Shown: positions 12,085 to 42,577 of the stretch, one piece after another
Numbering within the stretch: position 1 is the stretch's first letter
How the letters are laid out: the number at the start of each line of letters is the position of its first letter
Assembly: GCA_003223515.1 (NCBI GenBank)
Contig: QHVI01000040.1
Location: 1-42,577, forward strand
From: Candidatus Angelobacter sp. Gp1-AA117
GTDB taxonomy: Bacteria; Acidobacteriota; Terriglobia; Terriglobales; Acidobacteriaceae
Length of the DNA stretch: 42,577 bases
Direction of reading: 5' to 3'
Translations under genes and position numbers: made by a program
Notes under the pieces: generated by a model
The model's database searches: none
What the model saw: the letters and a program-made list of their open reading frames with translations, nothing else
What the model was told of the DNA's origin: nothing

Positions 12085-12849
12085 TTACATCGCGAAGCGC
12101 AGCAGCACGAAGATGTAGAGCCACAGCACGCCCATAAAGTGCCAATACCAGCCGGTTACGTCCACGGCGATCTGCTGAGAGTCAAAGCGCAGTTTGAGCC
12201 AGCTTCCGAATAGCGATATAAGCAGCGCCAGCAGCCCTCCGCTGAGGTGGATGGCATGCAATCCGGTCAGCAGGTAGAAGAAAAAGCTGTTGGGGTTCTG
12301 GGAAGCCAGGTAGAGTCCCTGCGCGCGCAATGAATGCCAGACGATTATCTGACCTGCAAGAAAGGCAAATCCGAGCAGCGCGGTAATGGCGATCCAGGGG
12401 AACTCCGTCTGCAATTTCGGCGGACGGATTCCCATAGAAACAAATTCTGATTTCTTCAACAGCCCGCGCCGGCCCAACTCCAGCGTGATACTGCTTAAGA
12501 GCAGCACAACAGTATTGATGATTAAGATTCGGTAGGGAAGAATGACCGGCTGCCAATTTTCCAGGTAGGTTTTTTCAACCGGGTCCCACGGCCCATGAGT
12601 GCCGCGCAGGAAATAAACCGTGGTGACTCCCACGAATAGCGCAGTGACTGAGACTATGGTGATGACCATAGCCACCCGGTAGCGGCGCAAACGGTCTCTG
12701 CGGGAAACAAAGTCTTCGTGATGCCCGTAGTCTCCATCGTCACCGCCTCCAAAGCCCCAGCGATGAGGAATCTTTCCCGGCCCGCCACCACCCAGCCTGG
12801 GTTTCTGCGGCTTCTTGTCCAATTCAACGTGTTCGACTACCGGAGGCAT
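12085..12849 (-). CDS. ctaE: Cytochrome c oxidase subunit III
   Basis: This 254-residue membrane protein is the third core subunit of a heme-copper oxidase. An unusually long, Gly/Pro-rich and charged cytoplasmic N-terminus (residues 1-55, with HHED) precedes about five transmembrane helices. These include 'YRVAMVITIVSVTALFVGVT', the LLTGLHAIHLSGGLLALL helix and the final 'WYWHFMGVLWLYIFVLLRFA' helix. The last two are family signatures; HxxHLxGG and WHFxxxxWxxxF are typical of subunit III. It follows ctaD by 18 bp, so the two are cotranscribed. The subunit stabilises subunit I and the proton-entry site. It is the last gene of the oxidase cluster before the IS1-type element. Confidence 0.93.
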   Translation of the reverse strand: MPPVVEHVELDKKPQKPRLGGGGPGKIPHRWGFGGGDDGDYGHHEDFVSRRDRLRRYRVAMVITIVSVTALFVGVTTVYFLRGTHGPWDPVEKTYLENWQPVILPYRILIINTVVLLLSSITLELGRRGLLKKSEFVSMGIRPPKLQTEFPWIAITALLGFAFLAGQIIVWHSLRAQGLYLASQNPNSFFFYLLTGLHAIHLSGGLLALLISLFGSWLKLRFDSQQIAVDVTGWYWHFMGVLWLYIFVLLRFAM

Positions 12850-12867
12850 AGGAGACTTAGATGGTCG

Positions 12868-14592
12868 TTACTGCGGAGTGGCTGTTGAATCCTGCATGAG
12901 AAAATCTTTTGACGCGCCCGGCACACTATACTCGTACGCGCCCTGATATACGAGCGGACTCTGGTTGCCGAATCCCTCGCGTGGCGGAGGCGATGGCAAA
13001 GTCCACTCGAGCGTGGTGCACTCCCACGGGTTTGCGCCCGCGGCTGCTCCTTTAAACATACTCCAGAAGAAGTTTATAAGAAAGAGCAGTTGGCCGCAGA
13101 TGGTGATGATGGCTGCTGCGGTGATGAACTGCTGCAGCGGCGCCATGGCTGCAACATACTGAACGCCAGTCAGTTCCGAATACCGGCGCGGATGTCCTGC
13201 GATTCCGAGCAGGTGCATGGGCATGAAAATTGCGTAAGCGCCAAAAAACGTCACCCAGAAATGCGCGCTTCCGAGAGTTGAGTTCATCATGCGTCCGAAC
13301 ATCTTGGGGAACCAGAAATACGTCGCAGCAAACACGGCGAACAATCCCGCCATAGCCATGATCAGGTGAAAATGTGCCACGACGAAATAAGTATCGTGCA
13401 GGTAGGCGTCCAGCGCCGGCTGCGCCAGTATGGGCCCGGTCAATCCTCCGGTAATGAACAGCGAGACAAAACCGATGGAGAAAAGCATGGGCGTGGTGAA
13501 GCGAAAGCGTCCGCCCCACAGGGTTCCCAGCCAGTTGAAGACCTTGATGGCCGAAGGCACGGCAATGGCCGTGGTCAGAGAGGAAAAGGCAAACCCGGCA
13601 TAAGGATTCATTCCACTTACAAACATGTGATGACCCCAGACCATGAAGCCCAGGAAGCCGATCGCCAGAATCGCGCCCACCATCGCCTTGTAGCCGAATA
13701 CCGGCTTGCGGGAAAACACAGAGAGCAGATGCGAGGTGACTCCCATGCCCGGCAGGATGGCAATGTAGACCTCAGGATGGCCGAAGAACCAGAAGAGATG
13801 CTGCCAGAGCAACGGAGAGCCGCCCTGATGATCTACAGCGTGTCCGCTGATCAAGAGGTTTGCGGGGACAAAGAAGTTTGTACCGGCATTGCGGTCCAGC
13901 AGCAGCATAATCACCGCCGCCAGCAAAATGCTGAATGCCAGCAGGATCAGGATTGCTGCAACAAACCATGTCCAGCAGGTCAGCGGCATGCGCATCAGAG
14001 TCATGCCCCGCGTGCGCATCTTGAGCGTGGTGGTGATGAAGTTGATGGAACTCAGGACTGAAGCCACGCAGAACAGGCCAATACTGACCAGCCACAAATC
14101 CGTGCCTGTGCCTTGCCCCGGCCCTGCTGATGGAACGGCGCTGAGTGGTGGATACTGCGTCCACCCGGCCAGCGAGGCGCCCCCAGGAGCAAAGAAGGCG
14201 GCGATCAGGACAAAGAAAGAAAGCAGTGTGATCCAGAAACCAGCCATGCTCAGCCGCGGAAGGGCCATCTCTGAAGCGCCCAGTTGCAACGGCAGCAGGT
14301 AAGTGCCGAAGCCATTCTGCGGTACCGTGGAGAGCACAAAGAACACCATCAGCGTGCCGTGAATGGTGAGATAGGCAAGGTAGTTCTCCGGCTTGATCTG
14401 TCCGAGGAAGGGAATCGCTGCCTGAGGCCAGACCAGATGAATCCGCATCAGCAGTGACAGGAACGTGCCCACCAGCACCGCCGCCAGCGAGAGAAAGAAA
14501 TACTGCAGACCGACGACTTTGTGATCGGTGGTAAAGACGTAACGGCGCAGCAACCCCTGAGCGGTTGGTTTAGTTGTGCCCAAGAAACTCAA
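12868..14592 (-). CDS. ctaD: Cytochrome c oxidase subunit I (catalytic, heme-copper)
   Basis: The 574-residue, 12-helix subunit carries low-spin heme a and the heme a3-CuB site where oxygen is reduced. Metal ligands are visible in the helix with 'YLTIHGTLMVFF', in FWFFGHPEVYI (CuB histidine, with the proton-channel glutamate of HPEVY), in GHHMF and in 'HDTYFVVAHFHLIMAM'. This makes it an A-type oxidase. The reading frame begins with TTG at 14592; an in-frame TAG lies 12 nt upstream and no ribosome-binding site is visible. The 5' region is taken up by a REP-like palindrome and an opposite-strand GIY-YIG gene that separate it from ctaC. Loss of the native leader by insertion is likely. Confidence 0.96.
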   Translation of the reverse strand: MSFLGTTKPTAQGLLRRYVFTTDHKVVGLQYFFLSLAAVLVGTFLSLLMRIHLVWPQAAIPFLGQIKPENYLAYLTIHGTLMVFFVLSTVPQNGFGTYLLPLQLGASEMALPRLSMAGFWITLLSFFVLIAAFFAPGGASLAGWTQYPPLSAVPSAGPGQGTGTDLWLVSIGLFCVASVLSSINFITTTLKMRTRGMTLMRMPLTCWTWFVAAILILLAFSILLAAVIMLLLDRNAGTNFFVPANLLISGHAVDHQGGSPLLWQHLFWFFGHPEVYIAILPGMGVTSHLLSVFSRKPVFGYKAMVGAILAIGFLGFMVWGHHMFVSGMNPYAGFAFSSLTTAIAVPSAIKVFNWLGTLWGGRFRFTTPMLFSIGFVSLFITGGLTGPILAQPALDAYLHDTYFVVAHFHLIMAMAGLFAVFAATYFWFPKMFGRMMNSTLGSAHFWVTFFGAYAIFMPMHLLGIAGHPRRYSELTGVQYVAAMAPLQQFITAAAIITICGQLLFLINFFWSMFKGAAAGANPWECTTLEWTLPSPPPREGFGNQSPLVYQGAYEYSVPGASKDFLMQDSTATPQ

Positions 14593-41311: not shown

Positions 41312-41614
41312 CTAACCCGCAATCTGATTGATTCTTTCCGCCATACGCACATCACGCTGCGTCACTCCCCCGGAATCATGTGAAATCAGCGCCATCGTCA
41401 CTTTGTTGTACCGGATATCTATGTCCGGATGATGATTGGCCTGCTCCGCAGCGTCAGCTATCTTGTTGACGAACTCCATGGCTGCTTTGAAATCAGGAAA
41501 CTCAAAAATACGTTGGATCGCCTTGCCGTTGCGTTGCCATCCCGAAAGCGACGCCAGCGCCTGCTGAACTTCAGAATCAGTGAGAACCGCCACAGTCTTG
41601 CACCTCAGGAACAT
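41312..41614 (-). CDS. phhB: Pterin-4a-carbinolamine dehydratase
   Basis: The enzyme dehydrates 4a-hydroxytetrahydrobiopterin, the by-product of aromatic amino acid hydroxylases. The product of 100 residues has the family active-site region 'EQANHHPDIDIRYNKVTMAL' near residue 58, with the HHP triad, a following tyrosine, and a later histidine and aspartate (SHDSGGVTQRD). The size is normal for the single-domain family. The frame is open to 41629; the ATG at 41614 is one of two possible starts. No phenylalanine hydroxylase gene lies nearby. A role in moco-related or general pterin recycling is also possible. Confidence 0.92.
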   Translation of the reverse strand: MFLRCKTVAVLTDSEVQQALASLSGWQRNGKAIQRIFEFPDFKAAMEFVNKIADAAEQANHHPDIDIRYNKVTMALISHDSGGVTQRDVRMAERINQIAG

Positions 41615-41629
41615 TCTAAATCGAATCAT

Positions 41630-41940: not shown

Positions 41941-42111
41941 TTAGACGCCTACTCGGAGACAGTTTGTACACTCTGAAGCAGTAAACATGTCCGGGCAGGT
42001 GCGGTCAGTGTTGCAGAAAATCAGCGTATCTTTTCTAGGTTTAGACCCACTGGACACTACAAGATTTCGTAAGGTTTCCTGATGGAGCACAAGTTTTTTC
42101 TTCTGGTTCAT
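41941..42111 (-). CDS. Candidate RiPP (class I lanthipeptide-like) precursor peptide
   Basis: This very short gene encodes 56 residues, starting at ATG 42111 with AGGAG at an 8-nt spacing, and ending in TAA. The N-terminal 17 residues, MNQKKKLVLHQETLRNL, fit the LxLxxETLRxL-type leader of class I lanthipeptide precursors known from Bacteroidetes, Acidobacteria and other phyla. The C-terminal half carries four cysteines (C33, C39, C48, C51) among Thr and Ser residues (T35, T38, T44, S46, T49), as expected for a core with thioether rings. No GG cleavage site is present. No LanB, LanC, transporter or protease gene is visible, so it is either an orphan or its cluster lies beyond the window end. 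A zinc-binding peptide is an alternative reading of the cysteines. Confidence 0.6.
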   Translation of the reverse strand: MNQKKKLVLHQETLRNLVVSSGSKPRKDTLIFCNTDRTCPDMFTASECTNCLRVGV

Positions 42112-42336
42112 GCTTTAACTCCTACTTTGATTTGATTCCGGGTTGCGATTTTATCATGGTACTGCCCGACCGCTTCATGCCCCTTATCAACAGGGTGCAA
42201 TTAAAAGTGCGAGTCAATGCCTGACGGGGCAATGCCGGGGGAGGTGACTTGCGAGGTTCTTGCAACAGTTAAGGCTGAACATTTCCTGGCGAGTGAGATA
42301 AATCAACATGGGTGAATCCATTTTCGAGGAGCACCT

Positions 42337-42577
42337 ATGACCGAACGTTTTTCCGATAGGGAGAAGACTTGTCCAAGCCAGCAACCGAGCTTGGAAGAAC
42401 GACTGAAGGAGTACCCAGAACTGAAAACCAAGATTGAGGCGATGCTGGGCATTATTGAGAACGCGGGCGGGGATGTGGAGAAGGCGGCCGAAGCCGAGCG
42501 GCGGATCTTGGAGGAATTGCGGCGCATGGGGAACGAGGCTTTGCACAGTTGGGGGCGCCGGCAGCAGCAAAAAAAGG
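42337..42577 (+). CDS. ISKra4-family transposase, 5' part (cut by window end)
   Basis: The 80 visible residues start at ATG 42337, with GAGGAG just upstream. They contain 'LKTKIEAMLGIIENAGGDVE' and a following helix EAERRILEELRRMGNEALHSW, the charged N-terminal helical region typical of ISKra4-type transposases. The catalytic DDE part lies past the window. The left end of the element should lie between about 42112 and 42336, but without the right end its inverted repeats cannot be found. The gene is divergent from the RiPP-like precursor gene at 42111. Confidence 0.75.
   Translation, partial: MTERFSDREKTCPSQQPSLEERLKEYPELKTKIEAMLGIIENAGGDVEKAAEAERRILEELRRMGNEALHSWGRRQQQKK

Follow-up and report, generated by a model that had tools for sequence, protein, structure and literature searches.

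The window (the whole 42,577-nt stretch of DNA that was analysed) corresponds to contig C199 of genome G000, an assembly of 6.48 Mb in 206 contigs with a completeness of 100 and a contamination of 1. Close to its right end, the minus strand carries a short gene with an ATG start that encodes the peptide MNQKKKLVLHQETLRNLVVSSGSKPRKDTLIFCNTDRTCPDMFTASECTNCLRVGV (Table 1). The first-pass annotation had proposed here a 56-residue precursor with a good ribosome-binding site and a core containing four cysteines. Indeed, the open reading frame is real and its peptide is confirmed, the AGGAG is present, and all four cysteines are found beyond the leader motif. The more general motif L.L.[QKR]ET[LIV] has a single match over all six reading frames of the window and none in the reversed window. 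The promoter and terminator scans of the locus revealed neither a standard sigma-70 promoter nor a terminator, and a Gly-Gly cleavage motif is absent from the peptide. In agreement with the annotation, which had seen no modification enzyme, Pfam scans of 13 ORFs of the window, a subset that includes the precursor, detected neither LanB nor LanC. The gene is adjoined by an ordinary neighbour coding for a pterin-4a-carbinolamine dehydratase (window positions 41312-41629, minus strand) and by the left part of a repeated element whose coding sequence starts at 42337. This element had been named ISKra4-type. Its repeated nature is borne out by the two other copies in the genome, but the name received no support from Pfam or NCBIfam for the 80-residue fragment that the element encodes.

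Table 1. Coordinates of the features at the window locus and of related loci discussed in the text
Feature	Coordinates	Strand	Basis
Precursor gene, 56 codons + stop	41941..42111	-	ORF and translation; eight paralogues in G000
Leader motif KLVLHQETLRNL	42061..42096	-	7/12 positions invariant across the nine paralogues, each coded by 2-5 different codons
Post-motif variable part, 39 residues, four Cys	41944..42060	-	Translation
Ribosome-binding-site-like AGGAG, 7 nt before ATG	42119..42123	-	Sequence; GGAG precedes all nine paralogues
-10-like TAAAAT, 42 nt before start	42148..42153	-	At least 5/6 matches in 7/9 paralogues
Repeated element, left part, likely insertion sequence; cut by contig end	42191..42577	+	About 97% identity, two other genome places
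RVLSRxGARxLTxEE peptide loci	C194 (L282 6346-12147), C38 (L283), C139 (L284), C185 (L269)		
Pre-LanB repeat-protein gene of G003	L092 about 12396-12930	-	
Pre-LanB repeat-protein gene of G007	L093 12572-13210	-	
Pre-LanB repeat-protein gene of G001	L095 3416-4108	+	

The window gene is one of nine such genes in G000, the others being found on C148, C168, C31, C22, C173, C92, C128 and C185, with one gene per contig. They have in common the leader K-L-x-L-x-Q-E-T-[LI]-x-x-L, which is followed by a Cys/Ser/Thr core that differs in each of them. As a single query, the window peptide retrieved the C148 paralogue at E 5e-5 and the C173 paralogue at E 0.005, and an alignment of six peptides found further members. 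All nine frames are open and GGAG is located upstream of every start codon (ATG or GTG). A degenerate DNA pattern of the leader matched nine times in the whole genome, against no match for the pattern written backwards; eight of these matches are precursors, while the one on C190 is not. Two other leader-like matches (C54 and C2) were excluded from the set since their motif has no nearby ATG or GTG start with a ribosome site, and they look like remnants. The conservation of the leader is accompanied by synonymous change, since the 36 pairwise comparisons of the 12 motif codons gave 121 identical, 203 synonymous and 108 non-synonymous pairs. Cysteines are likewise unevenly distributed in the nine peptides, with none in the 157 residues through the end of the motif and 28 in the 292 residues beyond. 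The window ORF is short and without an HMM match of its own, as a chance open frame would be, but this reading is in effect excluded by the match to C148, the nine-versus-none result of the leader pattern and the codon comparison.

The leader-HMM search proposed in the first-pass annotation gave no match for the window peptide, even at E 10. All nine peptides fall short of the NCBIfam leader models: compared with the curated cut-off of 22 bits of NF038153, the C22 and C185 peptides score 13 and 11.7 bits, respectively, and the other seven are without match. The window peptide, the only one of the nine scanned against Pfam, also has no match there at E 10, Nif11 included.

The nine genes are dispersed in the genome, and inspection by eye of the ORFs listed within 6 kb found no neighbour common to them. 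Six are more than 10 kb away from both contig ends; for the others, the nearest end is at 466 nt (C199), 1198 nt (C128) or 2584 nt (C92), and some of these three could therefore be neighbours. The C168 precursor starts 30 nt after a tRNA-Ser. A TANNNT element that agrees with TATAAT at five or more of its six positions starts 25-46 nt upstream of seven of the nine genes, compared with 3.8% of random 60-mers. Besides this -10-like element and the ribosome site, nothing clear emerged by eye from the alignment of the sequences that precede the nine genes. Each precursor gene would probably have a promoter of its own.

The genome-wide search for modification enzymes, also suggested by the first-pass annotation, succeeded outside the window. 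G000 possesses one full-length LanB, encoded on C144 (1089 aa; PF04738, E 1e-154; PF14028, E 2.9e-65), in which the glutamylation and elimination domains are both present. Directly upstream of lanB and on the same strand lies the gene of a LanC (439 aa; PF05147, E 2.5e-46), and both frames are intact. Among known structures, LanB has four matches including NisB (E 3e-39), the two best being 9g04 and 5ehk, and LanC has seven including NisC (E 6e-14). The LanC-NisC alignment keeps the AWCYG and CHG stretches, which we take to be the zinc ligands. Downstream of LanB, a fragment that is 81% identical to residues 986-1079 and contains one internal stop codon (C144:13202-13459, minus strand) is apparently what remains of a second lanB copy. 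The 19.9 kb examined around lanB contain no leader motif, and no precursor match falls on C144. None of the nine precursors is clustered with the enzymes, an arrangement that is usual but not essential. The first-pass annotation had considered either an orphan substrate or the edge of a cluster extending past the contig. The gene is an orphan, albeit only locally, and the cluster edge has to be abandoned since the set is scattered and the enzymes are on another contig.

Such a dispersion could also be that of decaying remnants of a former cluster whose peptides are no longer modified. This scenario would fit with the C54 and C2 matches, with the fragment of the second lanB copy and with the absence of a common neighbour among the listed ORFs. 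However, the residues of the leader are kept while their codons differ among the nine paralogues, the nine frames are open with GGAG upstream, the LanB and LanC frames are intact, and the scattered arrangement recurs in distant genomes (see below), which makes decay very unlikely.

A second alternative is that the nine genes code for RiPP precursors modified by other enzymes, as LanB-like and ATP-grasp enzymes are present in G000. The candidates would be LanB-like proteins of C180, ATP-grasp maturases of C194 and C38, or a radical SAM enzyme. Some homologous leaders indeed show weak matches, below the cut-off, to TIGR04149, which models peptides modified by radical SAM enzymes, and the C185 precursor adjoins a peptide of an ATP-grasp-associated family. 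On the other hand, the peptides of that family carry a different leader, and the two C180 proteins (L045 6772-17377), which flank an NRPS-like protein of 1766 aa, match the N-terminal LanB domain only and are therefore without elimination domain. Moreover, the leader type of the nine genes is found near a full-length LanB in the relative G056 and at up to 36 of 80 LanB loci, and we consider a modification by another enzyme as unlikely. As a side observation, G000 contains a second RiPP-like family with the leader RVLSRxGARxLTxEE (four peptides on C194, two on C38, one on C139 and one on C185). These peptides are located near a C39-peptidase ABC transporter and ATP-grasp maturase-like proteins (below curated cut-offs), and the copy on C185 immediately precedes the lanthipeptide precursor of that contig.

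The reading that we favour, in which the C144 enzymes act on the nine peptides, can be examined through the co-occurrence of leader and LanB in other genomes. Among 150 genomes (G000 and 149 relatives), precursors at E below 1e-4 are present in two (G000 and G056) and a LanB of this type in five (G000, G001, G003, G007 and G056). The probability that the two precursor genomes both belong to the LanB genomes by chance is 0.0009 when G000 is counted; since the peptides of the query alignment came from G000, the figure without it is needed, which is about 0.03, with G056 as the one precursor genome and four LanB genomes in 149. In G056, the nearest relative with such a precursor, the gene adjoins the orthologous LanB. 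A family search of 398 genomes gave four with a match at E 0.01, of which G000 and G056 are present by construction; the weak matches of G036 and G123 are internal to long frames and were left out of the precursor count. With the single 56-residue peptide as query, 71 of 120 genomes (its own included) matched at E up to 10, and no match outside G000 was better than 0.028. Finally, the exact leader DNA pattern, which demands Q at a position where homologues mostly carry K or R, had no match in genome contigs, a searched set from which G000 and its closest relatives may be missing.

No short precursor was found in the LanB-bearing sister genomes G001, G003 and G007. The gene that precedes lanB in these three genomes (Table 1) codes for a protein with a signal-peptide-like start, cysteines, ITKG(N)-type repeats and an internal KLxLxQxTLRQQN-like motif, which has no Pfam match at E 0.001 in the case of G003. 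This repeat protein is possibly an unusual LanB substrate.

A wider set of LanB loci was collected with an alignment of four LanB proteins as query, the 80 loci retained, from many phyla, being the best 80 of 510 confirmed relatives. Up to 36 of them have a short ORF that contains cysteine and carries the leader motif, an upper figure because L146 is clearly doubtful and L130, L131 and L164 are divergent. The reversed DNA of the 80 loci gave no match to the motif. The association between this type of leader and this type of LanB is observed in other genomes, and seven of ten homologous precursors tested pass NF038153. Together with the nine-member family and the LanB/LanC pair of the genome, these matches support the class I lanthipeptide-type leader that had been proposed for the window gene.

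Whole-genome searches performed for 44 of the 80 loci extended the precursor family well beyond G000. The query alignments of the whole analysis contained peptides from G000 (A1 and A2), the G056 peptide in addition (A3), or also peptides from 13 LanB loci (A5). A match at E 0.01 was obtained in 36 of the 44 genomes, each source genome of A5 having one match by construction; 12 of the 13 source loci fall within the 44 genomes, including G465 and G472 and excluding G460, G461 and G462. The most extended sets are those of G465 (Thermoanaerobaculum sp. MAG, 50 matches), G461 (Thermoanaerobaculia MAG, 30), G462 (Phycisphaerae MAG, 21) and G472 (Holophagales MAG, 10). Among the matches listed, 47 of 50 are spread on 28 contigs in G465, 27 of 30 on 24 in G461, 18 of 21 on 9 in G462 and 9 of 10 on 8 in G472, in metagenome assemblies where single contigs may be mis-binned. 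The cores are hypervariable in these four sets. The examination of 80 regions (39 of G465, 20 of G461, 12 of G462, 8 of G472 and 1 of G488) yielded 92 candidate peptides against one in reversed DNA. Since the regions were picked by HMM match, these candidates are a check of gene structure and not an independent count. A ribosome site, post-motif cysteines and a motif start within the first 12 residues are found in 88 of the 92 (43 in G465, 21 in G461, 15 in G462 and 9 in G472), and the single G488 region contained no candidate. PF04738 matches over 450 bits amount to two in G465 and to one each in G461, G462, G472 and G460; in G462, the LanB gene is near LanC and the gene of a C39-peptidase ABC transporter. 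Besides the set of G000, these much larger dispersed sets in related genomes with a LanB are a new observation.

The first-pass annotation was right about the kind of gene. Of the three observations that it had named as speaking against its proposal, only the lack of a leader-HMM match was encountered, as homologous peptides and a dehydratase both exist. In our opinion, the window gene is probably a class I lanthipeptide precursor, and the LanB/LanC pair of C144 would have the nine scattered precursors as substrates. The single full-length LanB would recognise the leader of the window precursor, glutamylate Ser/Thr residues of the variable part and carry out the elimination, after which (methyl)lanthionine rings would be formed with the cysteines by the adjacent LanC. 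In the same way, this one pair would modify all nine peptides encoded by scattered single genes and, since leaders are conserved and cores variable, could generate several products. These would presumably be released by leader removal, exported and active. A scattered precursor set, most likely served by one remote LanB/LanC pair, is the novelty of G000.

Compared with known systems, the C144 enzymes resemble those of nisin-type class I lantibiotics through their matches to NisB and NisC, but their contig is without precursor and the leader is other than the FxLD leader described in PMC7268733. The same paper reports an LxLxKx5L leader motif for class I precursors of Bacteroidetes, of which the G000 leader is a variant. 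Precursors with such leaders, of the NF038153 (lant_leader_L1a) type, share with the G000 set an L-x-L-x-[K/R/Q]-E-T-...-L layout, a Cys/Ser/Thr core and LanB plus LanC in the genome. The nine peptides differ from them by a Q in place of K/R, a leader without Gly-Gly end, scores below the cut-off or no match, and a location far from LanB instead of beside it. The genetic organization rather resembles that of the class II prochlorosins and synechococsins (ProcM/SyncM), whose many precursors, alike in their leader and variable in their cores, are described in PMC10783134 and PMC7268733 as single genes dispersed over the genome. In contrast to prochlorosins, the G000 enzymes are LanB and LanC and not LanM, and Pfam does not report the leader of the window peptide as Nif11. 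According to PMC7268733, many prochlorosin precursors were missed, being far from their LanM; the same limit would therefore hide a set of the G000 type. No precedent for class I precursors dispersed in this way turned up in the accessible text of the literature (PMC12328550, PMC8960859 and PMC13083261 included), which was searched for scattered, trans-encoded or orphan class I precursors and for lanthipeptides of Acidobacteria(ota) and Thermoanaerobaculia, with subscription papers mostly outside this scope. It is an evenly balanced question whether Acidobacteriota, Phycisphaerae and relatives hold a class I counterpart of the prochlorosin strategy, with one or few LanB enzymes for tens of scattered precursors that combine one leader with hypervariable cores, together with a LanB that sister species of G000 have turned to a long, apparently secreted repeat protein with an internal leader-like motif. 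If the LanB enzymes of this clade do act on tens of distant substrates, a large peptide repertoire has escaped notice and such enzymes would be naturally tolerant tools for peptide libraries. Finally, the reason for keeping such diversity is a question in common with prochlorosins, which could here be addressed in an independent enzyme class.
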